The notes under the pieces were generated by a model. That model made no database searches. It was not told the origin of the DNA and saw nothing but the letters and a program-made list of their open reading frames with translations. 64,000 nt of DNA, taken from Bullera alba (Eukaryota > Basidiomycota > Tremellomycetes > Tremellales > Bulleraceae). The translations under genes and the position numbers were made by a program. Where the stretch lies: positions 372,001 through 436,000 of the forward strand of contig BCIX01000002.1 in assembly GCA_001600095.1 (NCBI GenBank), written 5' to 3'. This document shows, one piece after another, positions 14,989 to 42,500 of this stretch. Positions within the stretch are counted from its first letter, which is position 1, and each line of letters starts with the position of its first letter.

Positions 14989-16126
14989 CTACGCTGGGGA
15001 CAGGATCCAGCCATCCGGGAGTCTCTCATTCTTCCCATTGAGCCCTCCCCAGATAATGACGCCGTCACCGGCGACGTCCGAGGCGAACCAGCCTCTCTCT
15101 TCCGGCGCAGGACCTTCTGGCTTCACCTCGCTCCATTCGCCATTGGTAGGATCAAAAGCCCAGATGTCGGGCCAGAAGTTGCCAGCGGAATCGTGTCCGC
15201 CGGTGGGCGAAGGTTTGCCCTCGCCAAAGATCGTGACGAGTTTGCCTGCCAGAGGCAAGAGTGTGTGCACTGATCTCGCGCCTGGACCTTCTGTGTTGGC
15301 CTGAGGGGTAGCGTCATCGCCTCGACCGAGTCCAGTATTCTGTCCAAAAGTCACAGTCTCCCAAGTTCCCTCGGCCGCAGCTTTCGGTGATGAGGTATCC
15401 AGCGTAAGATAATCAATGGAGCCTCCAACTTCAGTCTTCCCGTTGAAACCTCCGTTTCGCCATATCCTTCCGTCGACATGACAGATAGCTGTGCCGCCTC
15501 GTGGATCACCGGGGGCATCTGCAAGCTGTGTCCATGTTGTGGATGAAGGGTCGAAAATCCAGACATCCTTCAGTCGACCGGTGGAAGCATCACCACATCC
15601 AGCGTGAACTATAAGAGAAGTTGGCGTTGCAGTGGCACAATGGTATGACCTGGGAGCTGGGAAGTCTGCACCCTTGGGCTCGATCTTGGTCCAGGTCGAG
15701 GTTGCTGGGTCGAAAGCGAATACTGCGCCGGACTCCGCTAGAGGGGTCATGTTAGGTCCCCCTCGCTGCGAGACATCAGCACTGACTACAAGACTCAGTG
15801 CAAGGGTTCACTCACCCCGCCGAAGACATAGATCTTTCCGTCGATACTGGCGGCAACATGACCAACTCGTGGCTCGGGGATATCCCCTTTGGCGTCGACT
15901 CGTTGGTAAGCACCAGTTTTGATATCGATAGAGTGTACGGCGTTATCCACTGGTTCTCTGGGGTTGATCTCCCTGCAGGTGGTGGATCAGCGACATTTGA
16001 TCTCCGAGACTCAGGGCACACTCACCCTCCGAAGATGTAGGCTTTTCCGTTGATCACAGTAATCGATTGAGAGGATCGAGGGAACGCTTCGTTTGGGACT
16101 TTAGTCCATGTCAGGCTGACAGGCAT
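14989..16126 (-). CDS. Kelch-repeat beta-propeller protein
   Basis: A protein of about 340 residues built almost wholly of kelch repeats, a fold used for protein binding and, in some families, small-molecule enzymes. ATG 16126 (MPVSLTWTKVPN) was chosen because repeats start at once. Each blade shows the pattern of paired Gly (YIFGG, IYVFGG, IIWGG) and spaced Trp (TWTKI, TWTQL, EWSEV). Introns fall after KAYIFGG (about 15970-16025) and after KIYVFGG (about 15760-15815), so exon edges match blade edges. The terminal exon ends with TAA at 14989. No BTB, F-box or membrane segment is visible, so it may be a stand-alone propeller. The closest general resemblance is to cytosolic kelch proteins of the nitrile-specifier/acyl-CoA-binding type. 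Function is not assigned. Confidence 0.82.
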
Positions 16127-16632
16127 GTTGGGCAGGCGAGCTGTGGCTTGCGTTGAGTCTACTACTGCACCCTGCGTTGTTCGTTGGCGGAATGAAGGAA
16201 GTCGACAATTCTCCTCCCTTGCCCTCAAGCTCCCCGGTATTTGTGTGCCGCAAAGTCCTCGCAGAGTGCGGATTGTGCGGTCACGATGTGGTTACGATTA
16301 TTGAGTGTGTTGGTCGAGATTCGAGCCTCGTTTTGGTATGCTGATATGAGTCTTTGAAAGTCAACAGGACAGAGGTCGCCGGTTGCCGATGATGTACGTG
16401 CGGAAGGGTCAGGAGACCTCATACATTCTTCGAGCTTGTCCTCTCTCGATGTCAATCATGCTCACGAAGCTCACAGCACGAGAAGGAGCGAAGTGTGGTA
16501 TTTGATTAGGCGTTTGACACGGTGCCACACTGGGATTCACATGCATGCCGATCGCGGTCGGCGTCGGGGCTGCGAGCGGCCGAGCAGACGGGATCAAATC
16601 TATTCGCCACCCATCTGCCGTACTTGCTCGTG

Positions 16633-16647
16633 CCTTCCACGTCGACA
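16633..16647 (+). promoter_or_regulatory. ACGTC element, copy 1
   Basis: CCTTCCACGTCGACA. The reverse strand reads CGACGTGG, one base from the mammalian UPRE core TGACGTGG. Confidence 0.5.
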
Positions 16648-16710
16648 ACTTCACCGCTTTCGTGTCGTCTTCCACCTGCAATCATTTCCTTCTCCTTTCG
16701 TATACCCAGA

Positions 16711-16725
16711 CCTTACACGTCGACA
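16711..16725 (+). promoter_or_regulatory. ACGTC element, copy 2
   Basis: CCTTACACGTCGACA, the second copy of the same 15-bp element. It differs from copy 1 at one position. Confidence 0.5.
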
Positions 16726-16815
16726 GACTCGTTCCGGTTCATTTCTCGCTCCGCCTTTTCTTACCTTCATTTCGCTGTCTGCTCTTTGCCTTTCTTTCCT
16801 CCACAAATACTTTTT

Positions 16816-16830
16816 CCTTCCACGTCAACA
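16816..16830 (+). promoter_or_regulatory. ACGTC element, copy 3, with a perfect UPRE core
   Basis: CCTTCCACGTCAACA. The reverse strand contains TGACGTGG, an exact match to the unfolded-protein-response element core bound by Hac1/XBP1/ATF6-type bZIP factors. It lies 36 nt before the bZIP ATG. Confidence 0.55.
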
Positions 16831-16866
16831 GACCTTCCGCTACAACCTATCAACTCACAACAAAGG

Positions 16867-18181
16867 ATGGCCAATGCTATTGCTTCGTCGTCTCAAGCGG
16901 TCAAACGGTCGTCACCCAACACTACCGGCTCTTCATCTGCCAAGCGAGCCAGGCAGTCATCGACCAAGCATGACGACTTTGATGATGATGAGGATATAGA
17001 TGAGGACGGCGCGGAGCTGGATCAATCCGCAAAAGCCAAGGCCGAGCGTAAAGCCGCCAGAGTGAGTGTCCTTCGGCAGTCTCCCACGCTGCAGCCATTG
17101 ACAATCGCCTGCAATAGATCATTCGCAACCGAGAATCAGCACAGCGCTCGCGTAACCAACGCAAACAGCACCTTGCATGGCTCGAATCACGAGTCATCGA
17201 GTTGGAGCGAGAGAATCGCGCTCTACGGTCTGGCGACACCCCTTCGCTTTCGTCCAGCTCGTCAGCTAGAGAAAGCTCTCCTTCGCAAAGCGTCGCTTCG
17301 TTCGCCAGCGATCTTGGTATTCCACCCGAGGTAGTCAACTCTTCCGGTGGCGTCAATCTGGCCAACGTAGCACCGCCACCCTCGGACTTGGATGTCAAGC
17401 CGGTCGTCGAGCAACCTTTCAACACCGTAGAAATCGTTCAAACTTCCGACTTGGAGATGGAGAACGCCGCCCTCAGGGAGCGAGTCAGTCTCTTGGAGAA
17501 TCTGGTGAAACAAGTCGTCGCACTGTCGAATCTCGGTAGCGTACCGCCTGCAACGTCTCAATCTTCGCTGGCCACGCCCACTACCTCTGCAAACCCCGCC
17601 ATGGACTGGGAAGCACTCAATCATCTGACTGTGCCAAGCACTCGGAGCGGTGGAGTCACCCTGTCACCAGCCATGTACCACGCCACACCCCTGACCGCCA
17701 CTTCCGACGACTCAATGACCAACCCTACCGCATCACTCTTCGATAACGAATCGGTTCACGGACAGAATTCCGGACTGGACCTCACTTGCCATCCAGCAGC
17801 GATGGTGACCTCTTCCCTTGCGGAAGCGGCCCTGCAGCGGGTGAGGACCCCTTCAGTCTCGGTATCTTTGGAAATGAATTCGGCTCGTTTGCGAACAGTG
17901 GCTCGAGTAGTGGTGGCTCTGGCCAAAGTCAAGGGTTCGACCAAACCAACTTCGCCATGGAACAGACAGGATCATACTCGGCGCAGTCGGTGGATGTCCA
18001 GGTGTGGGGCCAGGGATCAGTGGGCGACGAAGACTGGGATGAGGGGATGAGACAACTTTTGGAGGATCTGGAGGGGCGCGGAGTAGGAGGAGGAAATGTA
18101 CAGGAAAGCAACGTGGAAGTGACACGGAGTCAGGGAATAGAGTGGGACTGGCAGAAAACATCGAGCGGAGTGACAGTGTGA
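16867..18181 (+). CDS. bZIP unfolded-protein-response factor (Hac1/Xbp1/Hxl1-like) with a predicted Ire1-type intron
   Basis: ATG 16867 begins exon 1 (16867-17061). A normal GT-AG intron (17062-17117) splits the basic region, giving ERKAAR then IIRNRESAQRSRNQRKQH. The zipper LAWLESRVIELERENRAL follows with Leu every seven residues. A second coiled segment (LEMENAALRERVSLLENLV) lies about 85 residues downstream. The frame from exon 2 runs to a stop at 18050 (375 aa) with a basic, ragged tail. A different frame is open from 17786 to 18181. Removing 17800-17837 (38 nt, both cuts at CNGCAG^C) joins them into a 406-residue protein whose tail is acidic and Trp-rich (DEDWDEGMRQLLEDLEG, IEWDWQ), a plausible activation domain. 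This is how HAC1, XBP1 and cryptococcal HXL1 work: cytoplasmic splicing by the ER sensor Ire1. Orthology to HXL1 is inferred, not tested. The factor may regulate itself through the three upstream ACGTC elements. Confidence 0.85.
17800..17837 (+). other. Predicted non-spliceosomal 38-nt intron (Ire1-type)
   Basis: The 5' site is CAGCAG^C (794-799 of the 17 kb block, cut after 17799). It sits in a 7-nt loop closed by CCATC/GATGG (17789-17793 with 17801-17805), and the stem extends three more pairs including two G-U wobbles. The 3' site is CTGCAG^C (17832-17837), with a weaker, mismatched stem. Both loops match CNGCAG^C, the Ire1 consensus. The excised segment starts with C and ends with G, so it is not GT-AG. 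Its length is 2 modulo 3, which makes the frame switch. Confidence 0.75.
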
Positions 18182-39585: not shown

Positions 39586-42500
39586 CTACTGTCCAGCAAG
39601 CTTGGAGAAGAAGTGGAAGAAGTCGACGTTGGAAGCGGTCATCGAGCATTGGTAGATGTAATTTGAGCTGACCCAAGCTGACCATACGGCTCGTTGGTAC
39701 TGCGTATTTTGATCAGCGCGAGTCACCCTATCTCTTTCAGCACGTCACTCACCTGCTCTGGCAGTCGCTCCATCAAGGCGTCGAGGCCAACCTTGTCGAT
39801 GAGCGTCTTGGGGAATGCCCTCGCGAGCACAGTCTTCCTCGAAGCGACGTTTTCGTAAAGGTCCGACTTCTCCAGCTCGTTCTGCAGGTCGTTGAGCGTG
39901 GACGAGAGCTGGTCCGAGATGGTCGTTCGGTACTTGCTTCCCTTGTTTCGCTGCCACTCTTTGGCAATGCTGCGGGGAGTCAGTATATGCTACGATCCAG
40001 TCTGGCGCGAAATGCTCACCAAGAGTACTCCGCTGCGGCGTTCTCGCAGATCTTTTGCTGAATGTCCTTGACGTAGTGCTGGTCTGTCACAAAGTCAGCT
40101 TGACCCAGCGCGCTCGCTTGACAAGAGTCTACTCACAGAATGGAGACGGTTGACCGTTCTTGAAGATCATGTTCGCAATGTACTCCTCGTCCGTCAGACC
40201 CAAGCCGGCCAACACTTCGAGTGAAGACGACGTGACACCACCCTTGTTCGTGCTCGAGTCCTTGAAAAGCACCACGCCCTTCTTCTCGAGGTAGAATCGT
40301 GCTTGTTGCGTGAAGAACAGGTTGGCGCCTTCGACCACGTACTTGAAATTTGGCTTGCCCTCGCCGTCGACCAACCTCGACACGTTGGAGATGTTGACGG
40401 CTTCAGGTCGTCCACCACATGGCACGAACAGATCCGCCTTGACTCGGAAGTGGAACGAGTTTCGGAACTCGGTACCGTCGGGCACAATCTCTCCACTTGG
40501 CAATCGGACGTCCTGCTCGTCGACAAGCACCTTGTAGCCCTCTGGGCCCAGCTTCTCCTTGGCGAACTCGACAATGGGCTTTCTTGCCTTGGCCAGTCGG
40601 ATGAGCTCGGGTCGGTCCAAACCAGCCGGATCATAGATGATACCTGAGCCGTCGATGATCGCCACAGTCTTGTCCTTGGACAGAAGGATCTCGTTCGAAC
40701 CGAGGTCCCCATCGGGACCACCAGTCTGGAACTTGGTGACATCCTTCTCGTTGAGGCCGTGGGCTTTGAGGACACCGATGATGTATTGTCGGACTGACAA
40801 ACTGGTCATACCGTACGTGTCGTGGGGAATACCACCGAGCAGCTCGGCGGATTTACCAGTGGTGAACGACTTCCACCATGGAGCCGACCTGGCTCGGGCG
40901 TGCTGAGCAGCCCAGTCCATAAGATCGGCGGTGTTCTGCCGGTGTCAGTTACAGCACTCCAACGACAGCTTGAAGCCAACTCACCTCATCAGGGCCGAAG
41001 AAGAGGATCTCGGGGTCGGTTCTTCCACTGACGTCGACGATTGGTCCCTTGATACCTGGCGTCTTGCCTGGAATGAGTAGGTCGATGATAGACTATAGAG
41101 TCAGCGATCGTTTTCCAACCTTCACTCACATCGACGTATTTCTCGAAGCACTGGGCGTAGTTCGCATCAAGTGCAGGCAGGATGGTTCCCTTGGCACCTC
41201 CTTCTGGGATATCCTTGTTCTTCAAGTTTTGCGTCGCGGCCAGGGCGTAATTCTCGTCGAAAAGCGTTCGGACGTTGGAGTTGTAGTTCTCCTTGCCTCG
41301 CGATCGGATGATTCGAATACCACCTCGAGCGACGTCTCTGAATCGGACGTGGAATCCTCGGAACTCGGCGCCGATGACGAAGAACATTCCGAAGGGCTTC
41401 TTGGGGTACTCGATCTCCGGCAGGAAACCTGGGTCGAGTCGGAACGACAGAGCGACCTTTGTTGGCTGGTAGAAGTTGCACTTGAGGACGTGCTTGTTGA
41501 ACACCAATAGCGCCTCCAATATGGACGAGGCGTGCTGGTTGGCGGCTGTCTTCTTGATCTTGAGGTATAGATCCTGGTCGGACAATGGCTGCTCCGTCTT
41601 TAGTCGCTGGAAAGACAGGGTTGGGGTGAGCTGAGAGGCCTCGTCGGCGGCGGGGTAGTGGGTCATGGCAAAGTTGATGTAGAGCATCCTGATGAGCTCA
41701 GGGTGCGATTGGATCACCTCTCGAATGGACTCTCGGGTGAAAGTCTCCTCTCTGAATCGCCTCTTGATGTTGTTGAGCACCTCCGCGTGGTCTGGGTTGC
41801 TGTCATCGAGTACCTGCTTGAGAGACAGGTATGCCTGACCCAAACGGTTGCAGAAATGCTGGGCAAAGATCCATCCACAGTATGCGTAGGTGGCCTCTTG
41901 GACGGCGTGCGAGCTATCGCTGTCCCGACCGACGGTGAAGAATGGGTTGTCTGGTAGACAGTAGAGCAGAGACGCTTCTCGGACGACTTGGTGAATCGAG
42001 TGCTCGATGGGTGGCGCTCGGGTGTTTGGCACGGGGTTGAGGTACATCGAGATGATGGTCACACCGTTGGCGAACTGCTCGACGTATTTTCGAGCCGAGT
42101 AAAGGCCGTAGAAGTGGTATAGGTCGGACAACGCAGAGAAGAACTTTCGGGTACCTCCGGATCTAATTGTCAGCAGCTGTCATAGCGACTAAACTCACTT
42201 GTAACCGATGACGACTCGTCGCTCTCTACTGTCCTCGACCTCGAACAGCTCAATGACGGGGCCATCTCGTCTCTCAACCTCGCTGAGGACCGCCTGGTAG
42301 ATGTCGAGGGTGTTCTCGCTGGCCTTCTCCAAGAAGCTGGCATCGGAGACGGACTTGATGTCGGTCGTGCCGTCGGCTGTCTTGGTGGCAGGTGACGTTG
42401 GGAACTCGCACCTGGAGACAAAGTAGCATCGGAGCTGTTGAGAGATGGTCGAGGAGATTGCTCCTGCCGATCGGTACGTCTCCAGTCGGTAAGCCTTGTT

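Follow-up and report, generated by a model that had tools for sequence, protein, structure and literature searches.

The gene at positions 16867-18181 (+) of the analysed window, a stretch of 64,000 nucleotides of Bullera alba DNA, very probably codes for an unfolded protein response (UPR) regulator of the HAC1/XBP1/HXL1 type, whose mRNA carries a predicted Ire1 intron of 38 nt. All features of the gene described here lie on the forward strand. Coding exon 1 (16867-17061) provides the first 65 aa with the N-terminus and the start of the basic region, and is followed by a conventional GT-AG intron of 56 nt located within the basic region (17062-17117). Exon 2 (17118-17796) codes for most of the bZIP domain and extends to the 5' Ire1 cut, the predicted Ire1 intron covers 17797-17834, and exon 3 (17835-18181, stop codon at 18179-18181) continues in a shifted frame. 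The predicted proteins contain 375 aa in the unspliced and 406 aa in the spliced form, as already proposed in a previous sequence-only reading of this DNA and reproduced here by frame arithmetic, and share 293 aa. The bZIP domain of the spliced protein was recognised by the Pfam models PF07716 (6.4e-9) and PF00170 (1.4e-8), both over the cut-off.

The two proteins differ in their C-terminal tails. Without splicing, translation runs through the retained intron into a tail of 82 aa (17802-18050, stop codon at 18048-18050), which is basic (16 KR and 4 DE residues, net charge +12), in agreement with the earlier description of a bZIP frame ending at 18050 with a basic tail. The tail specific for the spliced form consists of 113 aa and is acidic (4 KR and 18 DE residues, net charge −14). 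The open stretch of the second frame extends from 17747 to 18181; its end had been placed correctly before, whereas its start had been given as 17786. Deleting the 38 nt fuses both frames exactly. The unspliced tail also contains a mildly hydrophobic stretch at 17880-17924 (SARLRTVARVVVALA, mean Kyte-Doolittle value 1.1), and it is pure speculation that this might play a part comparable to the membrane-targeting region in the unspliced form of mammalian XBP1. The gene as a recent copy was rejected, as its DNA matched only itself in the genome at E<=0.001, a comparison which is blind to a diverged paralogue, and no relatives of the bZIP gene were found in the viral contigs searched. A Kelch-repeat gene (14992-15807 (-), Pfam PF24681) is probably divergent from the bZIP gene, and a partial gene for an NAD-specific glutamate dehydrogenase is present farther along the window (40992-42179 (-)).

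The borders of the predicted intron are marked by two CNGCAGC sites, CAGCAGC at 17794-17800 and CTGCAGC at 17832-17838, which had been recognised before as bracketing 38 nt whose removal joins the frames. The 5' site forms a hairpin at 17786-17808 with the 7-nt loop CAG|CAGC, and its stem, earlier described as a perfect CCATC/GATGG helix extendable to eight pairs, indeed consists of five Watson-Crick pairs adjoining the loop (17789-17793/17801-17805) and reaches eight pairs, two of them G-U, in its extended form (17786-17793/17801-17808). At the 3' site, the 7-nt loop CUG|CAGC (17832-17838) is closed by two pairs in a hairpin at 17830-17840. Both cut motifs thus lie in 7-nt loops, on a strong stem at the 5' site and on a weak one at the 3' site. 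Mammalian Ire1alpha cuts the sequence CUG|CAG (PMC6037481), and by reading, the 3' loop CUGCAGC is identical to the one in the 3' substrate from human XBP1 that the same paper quotes. Because the cuts are expected within the loops, CAG|CAGC and CUG|CAGC, the intron is best written as 17797-17834 instead of 17800-17837, as given previously; both versions produce an identical mRNA, because CAG is repeated at both intron ends.

We surveyed how often such sites occur by chance on both strands of the 64-kb window and of 20 further stretches of 10 kb, amounting to 264 kb or 528,000 bases of strand. A CNGCAGC site was present 234 times, a Watson-Crick stem of at least five pairs in 2 of the 234 cases, and two such sites spaced by 15-150 nt, with stem lengths of at least four and at least two pairs, were found together at this locus alone. 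Another CNGCAGC 7-nt loop with a perfect stem of seven pairs was observed elsewhere in the genome (L017:4855 (+)), which possibly represents a lone Ire1 cleavage site or a chance occurrence.

The region 17773-17858 was also matched over the full length (1-72 of 72 positions) by the Rfam covariance model RF04247 (bZIP non canonical Hac1/Xbp1 intron), with both loops of the locus in register with those of the family. The score of 31.5 bits falls under the curated gathering value of 41, and the match is therefore sub-threshold; the locus lacks three of the five pairs that the model has in the 3' stem. The E-values were 0.0006 and 0.0019 in searches of 0.7 and 2.2 kb, respectively, and 0.0039 in a scan of the 19.4-Mb genome, which reported this single match at E<=10 with 73 of 1267 first-look candidates scored. 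Because some match to RF04247 at E<=10 was also obtained in 7 of 14 prokaryotic control genomes, none over the cut-off, it is the E-value that carries weight rather than the mere presence of a match. Further bZIP genes are present in the genome, as seen from 11 matches to PF00170 and 8 to PF07716 at E<=0.01 in overlapping lists, and RF04247 was reported for this bZIP locus alone among the candidates scored.

Downstream codon usage favours the spliced frame. Codon frequencies were derived from 34 ORFs with a minimum length of 300 aa (41.7 kb, bZIP gene excluded). Over 17835-18047, they gave the spliced frame a likelihood of 13.9 nats, compared with 1.4 in the frame of the bZIP domain and −10.4 in the remaining one. 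In-frame stretches of 69 codons from the training ORFs averaged 9.1 (sd 5.3), and off-frame stretches −5.7 (sd 6.0) with a 99th percentile of 8.9. Over the entire downstream region (17835-18178), the totals were 16.0 nats for the spliced frame vs. 2.9, although the difference was small over 17841-17965 (9.2 vs. 7.5 nats) and 18051-18178 (2.5 vs. 1.6 nats). The best change points at 17783-17785 and 17834-17836 flank the intron, but all positions from 17771 to 17953 score within 2 nats, so the codon signal locates the frame switch only roughly.

The genome also codes for the enzymes expected to process such an intron. The ribonuclease domain PF06479 matched one genomic place, spread over two exons, which represents the IRE1 gene (C4). 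A gene model with eight introns, built by eye, predicts a protein of 1086 aa with a kinase domain (motifs VAVKR, HRDIKPQN and DFG), the Ribonuc_2-5A domain PF06479 and, likewise judged by eye, an N-terminal hydrophobic stretch and a transmembrane-like segment. The kinase-RNase part (441 aa) matched IRE1 chains in the PDB, the best being 2rio_A (1.1e-109), which we take to be the yeast protein, and the RNase motif YRKY...RNKxHH, presumably comprising catalytic residues, is kept in the alignment to the PDB chain. The TRL1 model (C1, by eye) predicts a complete fungal tRNA ligase of 942 aa with ligase, kinase and phosphodiesterase domains. Three HSP70 places were also judged by eye: one at C2:1417933 ends in EEVD and is SSA-like, one at C1:1602470 looks mitochondrial, and one at C1:930933 looks SSB-like. 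The 19.4-Mb assembly consists of seven contigs, one of them of 8.0 Mb, one thought being that this contig may reflect a chromosome fusion of the kind seen in some Kwoniella species.

In folding calculations, the exon parts flanking the intron paired with each other. The predicted exon-exon helix connects 17780-17789 with 17837-17846, its six outer pairs having probabilities of 0.91-0.97 and its four inner "zipper" pairs 0.71-0.80. A third hairpin, CC.CUUCC/GGAAG.GG, was predicted inside the intron (17809-17829) with pair probabilities of 0.88-0.94. The 5', middle and 3' hairpins follow each other with zero unpaired bases between the helices, and the exon arms 17780-17785/17841-17846 close the structure from outside. 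Among folds with both loops enforced, this closed four-way junction scored best (−30.5 kcal/mol). Enforcing the 5' loop alone gave −31.7 kcal/mol, and the minimum-energy fold (−33.0 kcal/mol) lacks both splice-site hairpins and has an exon-exon helix lengthened to ten pairs. Without constraints, the 3' hairpin had a probability of 0.02, and for the inner part of the 5' stem the pair probabilities were 0.41-0.43. The stability of the fold is ordinary (z −1.35, 48 of 500 shuffled sequences equally low). Pairing between the flanks 17760-17796 and 17835-17870 persists once the intron is taken out (−30.4 kcal/mol), which resembles the "zipper" cited for XBP1 in PMC6037481. In the folding model, a linker-free four-way junction close in energy to the exon-exon "zipper" is possible. 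A tentative and rather doubtful extension of this model is that the RNA is pre-zippered into such a junction. The 3' site with its two pairs would then not be stable as a lone hairpin and would become accessible to Ire1 only as part of the junction, or only once the 5' site has been cut, which would impose an order on cutting. If true, the locus would be a compact natural cassette for splicing whose recognition rule differs from that of XBP1 and HAC1 with their two independent hairpins.

Joining of the two frames by an ordinary spliceosomal intron has to be weighed against these features, since 77 frame-fusing GT-AG choices of 26-160 nt exist, e.g., 17805-17845 (41 nt) or 17841-17965 (125 nt). 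We regard this explanation as highly unlikely. The branch motif CT[AG]A[CT] occurs in none of the 77 choices (GT donors only), on which basis a GT-AG intron was rejected, and a GT[AG]AG donor is available in two of them, leading from 17841 to either 17965 or 17986 (125 and 146 nt). The 13 conventional introns assigned locally (eight in IRE1, four in TRL1, one in the bZIP gene) are 49-64 nt long; 12 of them start with GT[AG]AG and 11 contain CT[AG]A[CT], which is missing from intron 1 of the bZIP gene and from one TRL1 intron, and these frequencies come from introns placed by eye, which may bias toward such borders. The 41-nt choice, previously noted as a frame-changing version with a poor TGAG acceptor, does end in TGAG and is shorter than all 13 local introns. 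The alternatives of 125 and 146 nt have about twice the usual length, and their removal would cost sequence whose coding signal is positive in both frames. A 33-nt GT-AG reading (17805-17837) leaves the frame unchanged, just as stated before.

An error in base calling or assembly near 17790-17850 could likewise split one continuous frame without any intron being involved, and indels are able to cause such frame switches, in line with the broad change point of the codon usage. Such an indel would not, however, produce two 7-nt CNGCAGC loops, a stem of eight pairs and an exon-exon helix in the register of RF04247, which makes the error extremely improbable as an explanation. Ire1 is also described to cut stem-loops in decay substrates (PMC6037481), and the weak 3' hairpin could reduce the efficiency of splicing, which raises the question of whether the locus is a RIDD-like site that is cleaved without ligation, leaving the second frame untranslated. 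We give hardly any credence to this case, since a coding signal and an acidic tail are seen in the downstream frame, the exon arms can pair with each other, as expected of splicing but not of decay, and a complete Trl1 is encoded in the genome. The assignment as a UPR factor with an Ire1 intron, as first suggested by the sequence-only reading, is well supported at the sequence level by the in-register RF04247 match, the codon bias, the change from a basic to an acidic tail, the lack of a credible GT-AG joiner and the presence of IRE1 and TRL1, these lines of support being partly interdependent.

From the preferred reading of a 38-nt Ire1 intron, we infer cutting, ligation, stress dependence, target genes and autoregulation as follows. 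The nuclear transcript would lose the conventional 56-nt intron and be exported with the 38-nt segment retained. In the absence of stress, this mRNA would be translated to the 375-aa bZIP protein with its basic tail of 82 aa. ER stress would activate Ire1, and its RNase would cut both 7-nt loops, at 17796/17797 and 17834/17835. The exon-exon helix of up to ten pairs (17780-17789/17837-17846) may then hold the flanking exons while the intron is freed, and Trl1, the fungal tRNA ligase, would join the exons and thereby shift the frame. The resulting product of 406 aa would gain the acidic, activation-type tail of 113 aa and may drive UPR genes, perhaps including its own. A yeast-type HAC1 translation block by pairing of the 5' UTR with the intron was rejected, as the longest exact complement to 16300-16866, the region taken as putative 5' UTR, amounts to 7 nt.

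Three putative UPRE-like sequences were found upstream of the ATG, CCACGTCGACA at 16637-16647, ACACGTCGACA at 16715-16725 and CCACGTCAACA at 16820-16830, the first of which resembles the U. maydis UPRE TGCCACGTCG. The pattern [CA]CACGTC[GA]ACA occurs six times in the 528 kb of strand surveyed, three of them at this locus (16637, 16715 and 16820). In the entire genome, CCACGTCGACA is present 33 times, one copy being at this locus, compared to 15 occurrences of the pattern read backwards, and the longer form CTTNCACGTCNACAGAC was found twice, both times within 16637-16830 of the window. This distribution shows a local repeat, whose regulatory role is putative. In U. maydis, the UPRE TGCCACGTCG in the pit1/2 promoter is bound by Cib1, and the same motif occurs in the cib1 promoter (PMC4836707). 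Because of this precedent and the UPRE-like copies observed here, autoregulation of the bZIP gene via these sites would be a reasonable guess, but no more.

Among known systems, the gene resembles HXL1 of C. neoformans (CNAG_06134), a bZIP gene that, like the one described here, combines a conventional intron of roughly 55 nt with a short unconventional one, which lies downstream of the bZIP domain and is bordered by CAG on both sides (PMC3154848). The conventional HXL1 intron of 55 nt is described as lying upstream of the bZIP domain, and splicing of the unconventional one of 56 nt depends on Ire1 (PMC3154848). Protein sizes are also similar, with 406 and 426 aa for the unspliced and spliced forms in C. 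gattii and 375 and 406 aa here, whereas the unconventional intron differs in length, 38 nt here vs. 56 nt in HXL1, as judged from the published description of HXL1 (PMC3154848). The earlier remark that the short intron is unlike those of other basidiomycetes holds for Cryptococcus (56 nt). The unconventional intron of Ustilago cib1 has a length of 65 nt. Published HAC1 introns measure between 19 nt (C. albicans) and almost 850 nt (L. elongisporus; PMC6222058), so that 38 nt falls inside the known range. Among the open-licence papers covered by our search, the basidiomycete ones concerned C. neoformans and Ustilago, apart from one Pycnoporus genome paper, and none was obtained on Kwoniella HXL1; because of this scope, the 38-nt length is not shown to be unpublished.

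The likeness to U. maydis cib1, compared by description, lies in the unconventional intron of a basidiomycete HAC1-like gene (PMC4836707, PMC6918084, PMC6988420) and in the UPRE TGCCACGTCG of its own promoter, to which the upstream sites found here are similar (PMC4836707). With XBP1 and HAC1 as represented by RF04247, the locus shares two 7-nt loops with cut motifs, an outer exon-exon helix and a frame-shifting removal of the intron, but it differs from the family model by retaining two of five pairs in the 3' stem and by an extra hairpin between the sites. An intron of this kind changes the reading frame of the central UPR regulator and easily escapes annotation, in which case the active protein is described incorrectly. 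One such case is told in PMC6222058. The type of switch is already known, and this locus is a compact new predicted example of it, supplying a predicted spliced coding sequence and a candidate Ire1 intron of 38 nt. Its 2-pair 3' hairpin and the possible linker-free four-way junction are unusual and make it a small natural cassette for studying the minimum of 3' hairpin that Ire1 requires and the way in which the exons are kept together for ligation.
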